Shown: positions 22,553 to 28,753 of the stretch, in pieces
How positions within the stretch are numbered: position 1 is the first letter of the stretch
How the letters are laid out: each line of letters starts with the position of its first letter
Source of the DNA: Lachnospiraceae bacterium
Lineage (GTDB): Bacteria; Bacillota; Clostridia; Lachnospirales; Lachnospiraceae
Assembly: GCA_029338675.1 (NCBI GenBank)
Contig: JAQYAV010000013.1
Coordinates: 1-37,223 of the forward strand
DNA length: 37,223 nt
Reading direction: 5' to 3'
Position numbers and translations under genes: made by a program
Notes under the pieces: model-generated
What the model was told of the DNA's origin: nothing
Databases searched by the model: none
What the model saw: the letters and a program-made list of their open reading frames with translations, nothing else

Positions 22553-23758
22553 CTATTCAAAAAAACTCTTAACATCTATCTCCGAATAACACTGTGAGCA
22601 AAATCCTTCTATTACAGCACCATTGTTAATCTGCACTGATCTAGACTTAATATTTCCCATAATTACTGCTGTTGAATCAACAATAACTGGCCCATGCACA
22701 TCAATATCCCCATTAACAGCCCCTGCAATAACAGCAGAAGTTGCAAATACATTTCCAACTACCACAGAGCCTACGCCAATCTTAACACTTCCTTCAGTAT
22801 TAATGTCGCCTTCAAGCTTTGCAGCGTTTGCATATATCTCACCAGCTTCCACCTTTCCTGTTATGCTTCCGCCAATAATAAGCTTTCCTCCACACTTTAC
22901 ATTTCCTTCTACAGTTCCAATAACATCAATTCCGCCATCAGCCTCGATATCACCCTTAATTACTGTTCCCTTTGTAATGTATGTTGTGTCATCAGAAAGC
23001 ACACTATTTATATCATTTTCACGTTCCTTTAGCATCTCTTCACTAATTAAAGTTTCGGTCATGTCATCCTCCATATCATCTTCAACTACTTCAGCAATAC
23101 CATTTACGTTACTTTCTGTTTCATCCTCTAACTTATTAATTGCATCCTCTAATGCCTTCTTTAAGTCAAGATCCTCCAAATTCTGTTCTGTAGACAATAG
23201 GTCTTTTTGTTTTTCAGGTTCAACACTTAATGCATCCTCTGTATTCTCAAGCATATCATCATTATCTAATTCTTCAAGACTAACTAGCTCGTCCACTTCA
23301 CTATCCTGTGACATGCCATCTTCAATATCAACAATTATTGTTTCTGTATTATCCTGTTCTATATTGTCTCCAAGCACATTTTCACCAAGATGCTCTGAAG
23401 AATCTTCTATAGAGTCAAGTTTTTCAACATCTAAGCTCTCCAAATCAATCTCACTTCTTCCATTGATGATTTCCACCTCTGGAACCTCATCAATAGTTTG
23501 CTCCTCTGTGTTTTTGATTTCCACTTCTTCAGGTTCATTACTAAATGCTTCAAACTTGGAAAGGTTATCTATCTCATCATCCTCCATTCCAATTTCGTCA
23601 ACATTTTCAAAAATATCCTCTGGTGCTATCTCTATATCCTCATCAAAAGTATTGACCATATCTTCGTCATCATACTCATCTGCTAATTCATCCTTATCAG
23701 GCATAAGTTCATTAACTGCCTGTGCAAAGTCTCTCTTAAAATCCTTAAAAAATCCCAT
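22553..23758 (-). CDS. Bactofilin (polymer-forming cytoskeletal protein) with long acidic N-terminal region
   Basis: 401 residues in three parts. Residues 1-19 (MGFFKDFKRDFAQAVNELM) could form an amphipathic helix. Residues 20-255 are a low-complexity acidic region with dozens of Asp/Glu and few aromatics. Residues about 259-387 are a bactofilin/DUF583 beta-helix with repeating strands such as TVIKGDIEADGGIDVIGTVE and KLIIGGSITGKVEAGEI, ending in a short Cys-containing tail. Bactofilins polymerise without nucleotide and scaffold cell-wall enzymes; most are 120-200 residues. The head position in an operon with uppS, cdsA and polC is unusual. Role in shape or division is an inference. Confidence 0.88.
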   Translation of the reverse strand: MGFFKDFKRDFAQAVNELMPDKDELADEYDDEDMVNTFDEDIEIAPEDIFENVDEIGMEDDEIDNLSKFEAFSNEPEEVEIKNTEEQTIDEVPEVEIINGRSEIDLESLDVEKLDSIEDSSEHLGENVLGDNIEQDNTETIIVDIEDGMSQDSEVDELVSLEELDNDDMLENTEDALSVEPEKQKDLLSTEQNLEDLDLKKALEDAINKLEDETESNVNGIAEVVEDDMEDDMTETLISEEMLKERENDINSVLSDDTTYITKGTVIKGDIEADGGIDVIGTVEGNVKCGGKLIIGGSITGKVEAGEIYANAAKLEGDINTEGSVKIGVGSVVVGNVFATSAVIAGAVNGDIDVHGPVIVDSTAVIMGNIKSRSVQINNGAVIEGFCSQCYSEIDVKSFFE

Positions 23759-23792
23759 ACTATCCTCCTTTGCTAATATACGTAACTTATTT

Positions 23793-23821
23793 ATTATACA
23801 CCAAATAAAATGTGGTTACAA
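23793..23821 (-). promoter_or_regulatory. Sigma-A promoter of the bactofilin-pyrH-frr-uppS-cdsA-dxr-rseP-ispG-polC operon
   Basis: Minus strand TTGTAA (23816-23821), 17-base spacer, perfect TATAAT (23793-23798). Predicted start near 23786, about 28 bases ahead of the ATG. I found no convincing terminator between this point and the polC end, 12 kb away. Confidence 0.75.
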
Positions 23822-23852
23822 GATTTGACAATTATATATGAATATGCATTTA

Positions 23853-24398
23853 TCAAAATTCTCTGTACATTCTAATTATAACCATCAATATTGCAAATGT
23901 TATATTCATGTCCTCATTATGCTCTAAGGAATGTCCTACTTCCTCAAACTGTTTCAACGAAACCTCCTGTTCAACACAATATATCTTTAACTTTTGGGCA
24001 TCTAAAAATGTATCTTCTTTTCCTGCTACAACAATACATTTTCCTCTCTGCATATATTTCATGCCTTCAGGAACAGGAGTTAGGAAAATATGTCTTACAC
24101 GAATATGCTTTAATGTTTCATAATAGCCTGCAAGAGCTGTTCCCATACTCTTTGACACAAATACAATATCCTCATATCTAGAAAAATCAACATTTTTTAG
24201 TTGATTAACTACATATTGTTTTGCCTCTTCAATTAATCCTGCTATGTCATTTTTATTTCCCTTCAGATAGAAATTATAATTAAGGCCTATTACTTCATAA
24301 CCACGTTTTTCAAACACTTTTGCTGCATAATATAAAAGTGGCTTATCAACACTATAATTTCTTCCTGGAAATAAAACTAAAAGTTTGTTTTTTGCCAT
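23853..24398 (-). CDS. Small alpha/beta hydrolase-fold protein
   Basis: 181 residues. LLVLFPGRNYSVDKPLLYYA at the N-terminus resembles the oxyanion strand of alpha/beta hydrolases; IVFVSKSMGTALAGYY carries a nucleophile-elbow-like Ser (S-K-S-M-G, with Ser for the first Gly); VVAGKEDTF offers the acid and EEVGHSLEH the His. So the whole Ser-Asp-His triad can be placed. The substrate is unknown; such small members include carboxylesterases. It lies between the bactofilin promoter and the PEP-synthase-like gene in the same direction and has no strong link to either. Confidence 0.72.
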   Translation of the reverse strand: MAKNKLLVLFPGRNYSVDKPLLYYAAKVFEKRGYEVIGLNYNFYLKGNKNDIAGLIEEAKQYVVNQLKNVDFSRYEDIVFVSKSMGTALAGYYETLKHIRVRHIFLTPVPEGMKYMQRGKCIVVAGKEDTFLDAQKLKIYCVEQEVSLKQFEEVGHSLEHNEDMNITFAILMVIIRMYREF

Positions 24399-24472: not shown

Positions 24473-26827
24473 TTATAGTACAGATACTATCATTTTGTTT
24501 TTACAATCTAATCTAATTATCTTTACTGAGCTAATTTTCTTGAAAATCATTTCTCCACAACCAAATGCTGCTGGAACACCATTTGCCTTACACCACTTTG
24601 ACATATATTCAGTGTTCTCACTATACTTTGTAATGATTCCAACTATATTTTTAGTCAAAATCCATTCGTAGCCTTGACTTGCTTTAGTAAGTACAACAAT
24701 CTTGCCATTTACATCAGCATCACATTCTTCATCTAAATTAACAATTTCAGCTTCTATACAGTTGTTTGTCATAAACTGTGGTCTTTGTTCAATAACATCA
24801 ACTACATCAATATCTCCTAAATCAAGTATAAATTCTGGAAGCATCAAATAGGAATATGCATAATACATATTTCGTCTTGCTTCTATTATCTGAATATACG
24901 AATCTCTGCTGTGATAGTCCATTAAATCCTGTATTTCAAGATAAGACATATCGTCTCTGTCAACCATTTGAAGCTCGCCTAGCTTCTTAATTATCTCTAA
25001 AAGGAAGCTTAAGCTCTTTGTAAATTCGTATTTGAAAACATCAACATTTTTATACGATTCAACAATAAAATGATATAGCACCTCAGCGCTAAAGCTATAT
25101 CCTATATCAGCTATTGCTTGTGATAATTTATCTAAATTGAGTGTTACATTTTCATCACATTCAGCAATACTATTCTCGTCATCAAGTTCAAAAAACATAT
25201 GATTATTGCTATGCAAATCAAAATATTTATTTCTGTAGCAATTAGAACGAATATCATATGCGCCTAGCCTTAAATGGCCATACTTTGTATCAAATTCTTC
25301 TCTTGTCATCTCATTTTGAGCATACTTATGGAAATCTATATTAAATGTTTTTGATATAGTTGGAATGGAATCAAAAAAGCTTTGCATTTCACTTTCGTCA
25401 AAATATCCCTTTTCAACTAATGTTCTGCAAATGTCAACCGCAACATATTTACATCTAACCTGCCTAATATATTGAGGTGTACCATTTTTCATTATGGAAT
25501 TCATTAACTCCTTAATATAATTGTAGAGCTTCATTACGTTATTTTCCTGAAGTGGAGTGTTAGCTCTACACTGTCTTCTAAAGGTTCTAAGCTCGTCTAG
25601 TGCCATTATATCAGTATTACACATTGCTTCGTAGTTATTAATCATGTTGTCAGTAACCTCAAACACAGAGTCCATTATTTCAGATATTTCATCCTTAGTA
25701 AAACCTCTTTGTTCAAGCAAAGTTCTTTTTTCTTTATGATTGAAATCATAGGATGTAATAAGGATTTCAAACTCTGTATTCTTATGTCTTTTCTTATTTT
25801 CTTTTAATGCTACCTTGTAATACTCACACAATTTATATTTAAGCTGACTGTTAACTCGTTTAGGAATTATTGCATCGAATATTCCTTCAATAGAAAGATA
25901 TGGTCTATTACCTATTCTATGCATCAAATCAGGCGCTTCATCACTATAGCCAAAGCTTGCAATAGCATCTCTCCATATTTTTGATGTAATTATCTCCTTG
26001 TATATTGAATAGTCAAGTGGTCTTGGATTAGCACCTATAACCTCTACAGGATTCCAAAATAGCTGGTCGGTAAGCATATTATTGTGATCTAGATAATTAC
26101 ATTTTGCAAATGCCTTTGTATCAATAAATTCTTTATCTCCCATTGGGCAAGGCTGACTCTTACTATTGTCTCTTTCTCCTGCATTATATATAATAACCTG
26201 CTCATTTTTGTCAATAGCAAAATCTATCCAAAGTCCTGTTTCGCTATTCCAATAGCTTTCTATTTCCCTAACAGCTAAAACAAGTGCTAAAAAATCATCA
26301 TCCAAAAATTCTCTAGATACATTTTTAGCAATCCATTTATTTTTCTTTTTATTATCATTAGCATAATCATCTGAAAAATAATTATAGCTTACCATGTAAT
26401 ATGGTCTGTTATATATTAAATCTCTTGTGTATATTGTTCCTGCAACTGTAATATTATCGTACTGTCTGTGAACAAAAATAGTATCATGTTGTAATTTTTC
26501 ATCATCTTTCTTGTATTCTATGACACTTTCAAATAATGTGATTATGCTATTAATTCCACTTTTTATTCCATCTCTGTCACAAGAATGAACAGCTACAAGA
26601 ACATCTTCATTTCCAGTTCTCGAATATAATACATTATCCTCACTAACAGCGAGACTTCGAATTATTATATCCTCCCCTGCAAACTCCCTTTCAACTTCAT
26701 TACAAACCTCTTCTATATTATTTTTTGCGTATTCTATATTCACCTCATACATGTCAGCAACTACTGACTTGGTTAATACTGTACTAAGTAAAACAGGTGA
26801 TTCTGTATTAGTTTTCAATTCTGTCAT
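24473..26827 (-). CDS. Divergent PEP-synthase/PPDK-like protein lacking the catalytic His
   Basis: 784 residues (ATG at 26827; the frame opens slightly earlier with GTG). The N-terminal third resembles the ATP-binding domain of pyruvate phosphate dikinases (DIIIRSLAVSEDNVLYSRT, then TVAGTIYTRDLIYNRPYYM), but without the usual glycine-rich loop. The middle is helical, with NPVEVIGANPRPLDYSIYKE and NRPYLSIEGIFDAIIP, as in PEP-synthase-like proteins near surface-glycan genes. The C-terminal 90 residues are the swivelling phosphohistidine domain (GKIVVLTKASQGYEWILTKN, GVPAAFGCGE). In the active-site loop, where relatives have GG..SHMA or GGRTCHAA, this protein has SENTEYMSKW, so the catalytic His aligns with Tyr (about residue 741). 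Phosphotransfer by the usual route is not possible. Function unknown. Confidence 0.65.
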   Translation of the reverse strand: MTELKTNTESPVLLSTVLTKSVVADMYEVNIEYAKNNIEEVCNEVEREFAGEDIIIRSLAVSEDNVLYSRTGNEDVLVAVHSCDRDGIKSGINSIITLFESVIEYKKDDEKLQHDTIFVHRQYDNITVAGTIYTRDLIYNRPYYMVSYNYFSDDYANDNKKKNKWIAKNVSREFLDDDFLALVLAVREIESYWNSETGLWIDFAIDKNEQVIIYNAGERDNSKSQPCPMGDKEFIDTKAFAKCNYLDHNNMLTDQLFWNPVEVIGANPRPLDYSIYKEIITSKIWRDAIASFGYSDEAPDLMHRIGNRPYLSIEGIFDAIIPKRVNSQLKYKLCEYYKVALKENKKRHKNTEFEILITSYDFNHKEKRTLLEQRGFTKDEISEIMDSVFEVTDNMINNYEAMCNTDIMALDELRTFRRQCRANTPLQENNVMKLYNYIKELMNSIMKNGTPQYIRQVRCKYVAVDICRTLVEKGYFDESEMQSFFDSIPTISKTFNIDFHKYAQNEMTREEFDTKYGHLRLGAYDIRSNCYRNKYFDLHSNNHMFFELDDENSIAECDENVTLNLDKLSQAIADIGYSFSAEVLYHFIVESYKNVDVFKYEFTKSLSFLLEIIKKLGELQMVDRDDMSYLEIQDLMDYHSRDSYIQIIEARRNMYYAYSYLMLPEFILDLGDIDVVDVIEQRPQFMTNNCIEAEIVNLDEECDADVNGKIVVLTKASQGYEWILTKNIVGIITKYSENTEYMSKWCKANGVPAAFGCGEMIFKKISSVKIIRLDCKNKMIVSVL

Positions 26828-26927
26828 TATTATCAACACCCTTCACCAAATATGCTCCCATTATGCACATTTATAAACTTAAAACCCTTTGTATATAATT
26901 TTTTCTTAGGGATAATGGTATATATCA

Positions 26928-27837: not shown

Positions 27838-27852
27838 AAAAGGAGAATACCA

Positions 27853-28284
27853 ATGGAAATAATACTTCATCTTGACATCAAAAAAATATCTACAGATTAT
27901 TCTGATGCTTTAAAAGAATATATAAAGCGAATATCTCCTTTTGCAAAGGTAAAGGTATCAACCTACAAAAATATCAATAAGCTAACTGTAGCTTCTACTT
28001 CAAAAATATTATTAATTGAAGCAGGAGAAAATACGCTTACTTCTCCACAGCTTGCTGATTTCATTGAAAAAATATCTCTTGATGGTTTATCTGTTTTAGA
28101 AATAATAATTCCTAATCCAGATAATATCAAGCAGATAAAGGATACCCTTTCTAGCCAATGCTTTAATTATGACATTTTGAATATATCTTCCTTTAGTATG
28201 AGTGTTGAAATGACTGCTACTGTAGCTACAGAACAAATCTATAGAGCCTACACAATTCTAAACAACATCAAATACCATAAATAA
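27853..28284 (+). CDS. RlmH-like protein with intact C-terminal tail but no SAM-binding loop
   Basis: 143 residues. The end TEQIYRAYTILNNIKYHK is the RlmH C-terminal tail signature (EQxYRAxxIxxxxxYHK), and the start aligns along the whole RlmH fold (YSDALKEYIKRISPFAKVKV). However, the SAM-binding glycine motif IGGxxGL is replaced by IIIPNPDNIK, and the TFPHQ motif by SVEMT. A solo methyltransferase role is therefore unlikely. RlmH is a homodimer whose active site is built from both chains, including the tail, so this chain could serve the tail-less RlmH encoded convergently 19 bases away. The ATG has AGGAG 7 bases ahead. Not a pseudogene by appearance: the frame is open throughout. Confidence 0.78.
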   Translation: MEIILHLDIKKISTDYSDALKEYIKRISPFAKVKVSTYKNINKLTVASTSKILLIEAGENTLTSPQLADFIEKISLDGLSVLEIIIPNPDNIKQIKDTLSSQCFNYDILNISSFSMSVEMTATVATEQIYRAYTILNNIKYHK

Positions 28285-28303
28285 TTTTCTTAATGCAATA
28301 TGT

Positions 28304-28753
28304 TTACGGTAGCAAAGCTAATTGTTCCATAAGCATTACTCTCATTAACTGATGAGGAAAAGTCATATCAGAAAAGCTTAGTCTATAATCTGCTCTTTTA
28401 ACAACCTTGTCGCTAAGACCTAGTGAGCCTCCTATAACAAATATAATATTATTCACACCTCTTTGCGTAGCATGATTAATTACCTTCTTTAGCTTTTCAC
28501 TATCTGTTTTCTTTCCTTCAATGCAAAGTGCTACAACATAATCGCTAGAAGAAATATGCGCAAGGACCTTATCTCCCTCGCACTCTTTTATACTATTCAT
28601 TATGCTTTCTTTTGCATTTCTCGGAATGCTTTCATCTTTCAACTCAATTATTTCAAAGCTGTATTTTTTCTTAATCAAAGCAGAATACTCTTCAATCAAA
28701 TTTCTATAATATTTTTCTTTTATGTTTCCTAAAACGACTAATTTAATAACCAT
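28304..28753 (-). CDS. rlmH: 23S rRNA pseudouridine-1915 N3-methyltransferase RlmH, C-terminally shortened
   Basis: 149 residues. The SPOUT-type core is intact: N-terminus MVIKLVVLGNIKEKYYRNLI, SAM loop FVIGGSLGLSDKVVKRAD, and FSDMTFPHQLMRVMLMEQL. Where relatives continue with YRAFKI...EPYHK, this protein ends ALLP and stops, about 11-14 residues early. No other frame after the stop encodes the missing tail, so it is not a simple frameshift. In RlmH the tail helps form the active site of the partner subunit. The ribosome-binding site is weak. Convergent with the plus-strand rlmH-like gene that keeps this tail. Confidence 0.88.
   Translation of the reverse strand: MVIKLVVLGNIKEKYYRNLIEEYSALIKKKYSFEIIELKDESIPRNAKESIMNSIKECEGDKVLAHISSSDYVVALCIEGKKTDSEKLKKVINHATQRGVNNIIFVIGGSLGLSDKVVKRADYRLSFSDMTFPHQLMRVMLMEQLALLP

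Follow-up and report, generated by a model that had tools for sequence, protein, structure and literature searches.

RlmH (also YbeA or OrfX; PF02590), the methyltransferase responsible for m3-psi-1915 in 23S rRNA, has been described as the smallest of the SPOUT methyltransferases; it acts as a homodimer whose active site is composite (PMC5430550, available text). The two monomers of the E. coli enzyme have separate roles, one supplying the SAM pocket and the other R25, R26, E138, R142, Y152, H153 and R154; activity was undetectable in the mutants Y152F, H153F and R154A and in both E138 mutants (same text). The enzyme is present in most bacterial species with few exceptions, and the accessible part of PMC4119055 makes no mention of a split form. 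At the locus described here there are two genes, A and B, whose products share with RlmH the fold, the family and, as predicted, a composite dimeric active site; in terms of the E. coli residue roles, A corresponds to the SAM side and B to the tail side (PMC5430550, available text). Whereas known RlmH is encoded by one gene and forms a homodimer with both halves of the site in each chain, here the halves lie on two genes.

A search of the literature, with subscription papers mostly outside its reach, found no RlmH heterodimer, no split RlmH and no bacterial SPOUT case with such a division. Trm6–Trm61 is made of paralogous catalytic and non-catalytic chains, with a Rossmann rather than a SPOUT fold. 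Like the proposed A–B enzyme it is a two-subunit RNA methyltransferase, but it is eukaryotic and acts on tRNA, forming m1A58 (PMC5007650, available text). In the Trypanosoma brucei mitoribosome, mt-LAF5/6 resembles the proposed A–B pair in placing two different SPOUT chains on the ribosomal large subunit; unlike A and B these proteins are mitochondrial, are located at the A-loop and are discussed with 2'-O-methyltransferases, and the available text says nothing of pocket and tail being lost in complementary fashion (PMC12123411). The yeast proteins Ymr310c and Ygr283c have likewise been proposed as a SPOUT heterodimer with one degenerate subunit, but they are eukaryotic members of COG2106, and the pairing was suggested from sequence only (PMC1829167, in the part accessible). 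SPOUT heterodimers therefore have precedent in mt-LAF5/6 and the suggested yeast pair; for RlmH the search found none.

The window, by which is meant the whole 37,223-nucleotide stretch of Lachnospiraceae DNA analysed, carries A and B as convergent open reading frames 19 bp apart (Table 1). Chain A matches PF02590 with 149.7 bits over profile positions 1–141 of 154 (Pfam cut-off 27 bits), and it just passes the NCBIfam model NF000985 (173 bits, cut-off 172) while falling below TIGR00246 (132.2 bits, cut-off 149.7). Its AlphaFold model has a mean pLDDT of 94.3, the best Foldseek matches are RlmH structures (1vh0 at E 1.3e-16), and A has the RlmH fold. An earlier note on this DNA had described A as an RlmH with the SAM loop and TFPHQ and without the C-terminal tail, and the sequence and profile coverage bear this out. 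The protein ends in ...TFPHQLMRVMLMEQLALLP; a frameshift is ruled out, as none of the three frames over the following 120 nt contains a remnant of the tail. The losses exceed the tail, as the K-R pair of EYxKR in helix 1 is mostly gone too. The C-termini of all 30 A proteins of the genus were read, and they consist of short lineage-specific residues.

Table 1. Features of the A–B locus, in positions of the window
Feature	Positions	Strand	Remark
Gene B: RlmH paralogue without SAM pocket, predicted tail-donating chain, 143 aa	27853..28284	+	
Gene A: tail-less RlmH, predicted SAM-binding chain, 149 aa	28304..28753	-	
Gap between the two convergent stop codons, 19 bp	28285..28303	.	
AGGAG, probable ribosome-binding site of B	27841..27845	+	read from sequence
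SAM bight 2 of A, IGGSLGL, residues 107-113	28415..28435	-	columns G103/P105/G107
SAM bight 3 of A, TFPHQ, residues 131-135	28349..28363	-	H129 column
Helix-1 EYIKR of B (E. coli R25/R26 region)	27916..27930	+	columns 25/26
Helix 5 and catalytic tail of B, EQIYRAYTILNNIKYHK (E. coli E138, R142, Y152, H153, R154)	28231..28281	+	columns 142/152/153/154

Chain B matches PF02590 with 53.5 bits over profile positions 10–154 (same cut-off), and its best score against the NCBIfam RlmH equivalogs is 39.2 bits, far from the cut-off of 207. As the earlier note had it, B keeps the tail and lacks both the GG-type SAM loop and the FPH motif. SAM pocket and catalytic tail occur together in neither chain; only the two jointly supply both. 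A composite site to which both chains contribute, and a split of the SAM-side and tail-side roles between A and B as predicted from their residues, both agree with the chain roles in the E. coli dimer (PMC5430550, available text). A second full-length rlmH elsewhere, which the same note had named as evidence against its reading, was looked for and not found: a search at E <= 1 of this genome (99.97% complete) returned A and B as the sole RlmH-family matches, with no third member. Promoter-like sites in a scan were about as frequent as expected from shuffled sequence (10 against 7.2, sd 2.6), the one terminator-like site lies within A, and no Rfam match in the window reached the gathering threshold.

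The division between the chains is best seen column by column. The extended alignment contains 66 rows for A, 67 for B and 68 for full-length RlmH, and 33 of its columns reach 90% conservation or more in full-length RlmH. Counting a column as A-only when it is kept in at least 80% of A and under 50% of B, 13 are A-only, 11 B-only, two are kept in both, seven are mixed and none falls below 50% in both. A smaller table (57 A, 58 B and 63 full-length rows; 35 columns) gives 15, 12, two and six for the first four classes. The full-length majority residues at G103, P105 and G107 (E. coli numbering) are invariant in A (66/66 each) and occur in 19, 13 and none of the 67 B rows; the H129 column gives 66/66 for A and 1/67 for B. 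Conversely, K in column 25 and R in column 26 are present in every B row (67/67 each) and in 25 and 10 of the 66 A rows, and R, Y, H and K in columns 142, 152, 153 and 154 are again invariant in B (67/67 each) and kept in only 13, 0, 1 and 1 A rows. The helix-5 glutamate E138, a tail-side residue, is common to both chains (A 60/66, B 66/67); its presence in A, even though it belongs to the tail-side triad, counts against a heterodimer. K11, K42 and R43, contributed by the SAM-side chain in E. coli, are poorly alignable with the A and B sequences.

A single gene from G218 accounts for three of the A rows, through three loci, four of the B rows (L068, L186, L190 and L348) come from outside the listed pairs, and the table leaves out B of G1060 and both genes of G538. 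Among distant full-length rows, 38 of 101 were dropped before trees and tables were made, and four sequences that the motif rule assigned to B (L113, L129, L152 and L177) were relabelled full-length by hand because of their variant loops.

These patterns support the interpretation of the earlier note and make it very probable that A and B are the two chains of an obligate heterodimeric RlmH that complete one active site at pseudouridine 1915. A, with its RlmH fold, would bind S-adenosylmethionine in an intact three-bight knot pocket; B, with the same fold but no pocket, would give the helix-1 K/R and the tail (E-R-Y-H-K). Only the A–B dimer would then hold a complete, single active site over pseudouridine 1915 of 23S rRNA, and the methyl group would go onto N3 of that residue. 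That the chains dimerise, that the dimer is catalytic, that pseudouridine 1915 is its target and that neither chain works alone, we infer from the sequences. The homodimer is already asymmetric, combining one SAM pocket with the tail of the other chain, so that after a duplication each copy could have lost the half unused in its position, leaving the two mutually dependent by complementary degeneration. Only one cofactor site per RlmH dimer seems to be used in catalysis (PMC9508554, available text), and a one-site heterodimer need therefore lose nothing.

The pair is widespread. Among 37 genomes of the genus, searched at E <= 1, 30 carry tail-less A together with B and five have a single full-length RlmH without B (G015, G024, G027, G028 and G033; in G033, a draft 71% complete, the contig with the gene is only 3 kb long and may be of foreign origin), and no RlmH-family match was found in the incomplete genomes G031 (79% complete) and G034 (64% complete). 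The search of relatives for joint presence and identical paired losses that the earlier note had proposed thus finds them recurring in 29 of the 36 other genus genomes, and neither chance nor sequencing error accounts for this. In the family, 363 of 397 genomes have a match at E <= 1e-5 and 12, the genome of the window included, have the pair; the tail was in most cases assessed from a single match at E <= 2e-52, among the matches listed. On opening, the other five family genomes that gave a weak match or two matches proved to contain a divergent full-length gene or pieces at contig edges. In the order (392 genomes), 18 candidates among the matches listed were opened and yielded 11 pairs, two cases of B only and five full-length genes, the count of B, taken from the best matches, being a lower bound. 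Six of these eighteen came from short matches: G538 has the pair, and G574, G544, G484, G566 and G463 have full-length genes. The pair is likewise present in Eubacterium sp. An11, Youngiibacter fragilis (Clostridiaceae), Bacillota bacterium CSSed162cmA_249 and Lachnospiraceae bacterium RGIG4480.

At class level a match at E <= 1e-5 was obtained in 343 of 391 genomes. Opening 23 of these gave nine further pairs, one B without A (G918) and three genomes (G890, G925 and G971) with full-length RlmH plus a broken or short 3' piece; the remainder are full-length, frame-shifted, divergent or cut by contig ends, with one broken gene (G1053). The total is at least 65 genomes with the pair, spread over several families of the class (genus 30, family 11, order at least 11, titled contigs four, class nine), and A is tail-less in 65 of 65. 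G750, one of five named genomes with B, is the same genome as G485 and was counted once; another duplicate may remain.

No genome opened has B beside a full-length RlmH, and none has an intact tail-less A without B, a statement that at class level covers the 23 opened. Full-length genes in the surveys were mostly called by profile match. A weak or split B may score below the family and class threshold of E <= 1e-5 (the best B piece in G013 reaches 2.2e-4 in the genus search at E <= 1), so that the absence of B beside full-length RlmH is firm for the genus and the genomes opened. Where two matches occur without a pair, they are contig-edge or broken pieces or duplicate full-length copies. Thirteen candidate counterexamples were opened. 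G622, G645, G347, G721, G743 and G525 have one full-length RlmH each, G302 has one divergent full-length RlmH, and G456 has one full-length gene and one with an in-frame stop; G571 has two full-length genes and an N-terminal piece, G131 has, beside a full-length gene, a 3' piece of 41 residues lying at the start of a contig, G290 has one gene cut by a contig end, and G099 and G390 have contig-edge pieces. Relatives with only one of the shortened genes had been put forward as a way to refute the pairing. Both genes occur in at least 65 genomes; B was found without A in G497, G524 and G918, all multi-contig drafts, which counts against a heterodimer.

Several additional copies were seen in these surveys. 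G005 has a second B-type gene (L068, 1039–1464) on a 4.4-kb draft contig (C48), either a duplicate or a foreign contig. The full-length-like second rlmH of G456 (L255) lies ~2.6 kb from the intact copy. Extra 3'-only copies occur at L363 1009–1113 (G971), L364 1–93 (G925), L369 2–127 (G131) and L365 872–943 (G890), in genomes that also hold a whole gene; two of these pieces are at contig starts. The rlmH gene (orfX) is the integration site of staphylococcal cassettes, and the extra 3' pieces may be traces of integrated elements.

It might be supposed that A is a self-sufficient RlmH homodimer which tolerates loss of the tail, and that B is a spin-off with another role. A does keep the full SAM pocket, the RlmH fold and, for the most part, E138, and altered tails occur elsewhere: G1038 (L343) and G1122 (L342), of one genus, have a single divergent RlmH ending in Tyr-Asn-Lys or Tyr-Asp-Lys and no B, so the tail is not wholly invariant outside the set analysed, which counts against the heterodimer. 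So does G1053 (L340), 99% complete, whose only RlmH match stops before the FPH motif and in which B was not found; the methylation may be lost there, and its loss may be tolerated. A self-sufficient A is nevertheless highly improbable. Intact A was always accompanied by B among the genomes opened, and the residues that A has lost are retained in B. Since each of the E. coli tail substitutions Y152F, H153F and R154A abolishes detectable activity (PMC5430550, available text), an A homodimer should be inactive.

Decay of one gene as a duplicate, or truncation through misassembly, would fit the short lineage-specific ends of A and the draft state of most of the genomes. Both genes are, however, under purifying selection: in 16 close genome pairs dN/dS is 0.05–0.17 for A and 0.06–0.26 for B, thus below 0.3 wherever computable, two comparisons for A and two for B being saturated. 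Tail-less A and B also occur together in the many genomes counted above, among them the single-contig G019, G354, G452, G467, G552 and G976, and decay or artefact is scarcely credible.

The histories of A and B are correlated. Their distance matrices correlate at 0.84 over 49 genomes, against 0.77 for A with RlmN and 0.73 for B with RlmN; the partial correlation of A and B given RlmN is 0.63, and none of 2000 permutations was as high. The RlmN tree, from 67 hand-chosen genomes (49 with the pair, 16 with full-length RlmH and two without a match), is a weak species tree, being that of a single gene. On it the state changes between pair and full-length RlmH six times in the best tree and five to seven times over bootstraps, with at least four changes forced by starred branches. 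The two states are thus exchanged for one another, which is what functional equivalence would predict. This bears on the possibility that A and B do form a heterodimer in which B is a scaffold or regulator, or whose target is something other than pseudouridine 1915. Outside its invariant residues B is strongly variable (mean column identity 35%), which speaks for such a role. Its catalytic residues, however, are among the invariant ones, and from lineage to lineage the pair stands in for full-length RlmH or the reverse, the two never occurring together in the genomes opened, so that a scaffolding role or another target is improbable.

The number of state changes between A and full-length RlmH is one in the first tree (SH-aLRT 79), three in a tree that includes B and omits the pocket and tail columns, and eight, one of them forced, once class-level rows are added; between B and full-length RlmH one change is needed (support 81 to 90), or two, both forced, with class-level rows. 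A single origin of tail loss may not hold, the change counts for A (1, 3, 8) differing by tree. An apparent intermediate occurs in G834: its A runs unbroken up to and including EQIYRAFKILNNEP, after which only the final YHK is missing, and the helix-1 K-R is still present; YHK is absent from the frames read after the stop, and the B of G834, 13.6 kb from A, ends in YHK. Class-level A proteins of G862, G1060 and G896 keep parts of helix 5, and A of the window's genus is eroded in helix 1 and helix 5 as well as in the tail. Together these sequences suggest that A may have lost its last three residues first, with the other tail-side features eroding later. It is conceivable, if somewhat doubtful, that obligate heterodimeric RlmH arose more than once in Clostridia, by independent losses of tail and pocket whose stages are still visible and with repeated replacement between full-length and split forms.

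The arrangement of the two genes varies. In a hand count of 65 pairs, convergent genes that adjoin or overlap account for 43. Both genes share a strand within 9 kb in 10 pairs and at distances of 13.6 and 46 kb in two; one pair is convergent at 2.5 kb, and nine are far apart or on different contigs. In G452, a single contig of ~3.2 Mb, A is at 0.27 Mb and B at 2.60 Mb, ~0.9 Mb by the short way if the contig is circular; in G467, also one contig, A is at 2.11 Mb and B at 1.70 Mb. The persistence of such distant pairs shows that pairing does not depend on the convergent arrangement. In L016, L019 and L030 A and B overlap at their 3' ends by 17–29 bp, and the new C-terminus of A is there partly encoded opposite the last codons of B. 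Overlap of convergent genes was considered and rejected as a general cause of tail loss, as same-strand and far-apart pairs have the same losses.

In the window, G019 and G022 the pair has the same position in a conserved neighbourhood, with the shared order rlmN, PP2C phosphatase, PASTA kinase, rsgA, rpe, thiamine pyrophosphokinase, sodium:solute symporter, A, B and HAD hydrolase; the full-length rlmH genes of G015, G024 and G027 have other neighbourhoods. The same region of the window encodes a 788-aa protein (24473–26839, minus strand) without a Pfam match at E <= 1e-5, which is fast-changing (44% and 35% identity to its G019 and G022 counterparts). At 22553–24398 on the minus strand lie genes for a bactofilin-like protein (401 aa) and for one of 181 aa with no Pfam match; the compared stretches of G019 and G022 have no counterpart of either, and another gene sits there.

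For annotation, A passes one NCBIfam RlmH cut-off and B none, which suggests that RlmH models may label one half of the pair as a normal RlmH and overlook the other. As a natural split, with most conserved residues sorted to the SAM or the tail side, the pair would allow the roles of the two chains to be tested without engineering. It offers a clean case of complementary degeneration, in which a homodimer has given way to what looks like an obligate heterodimer.
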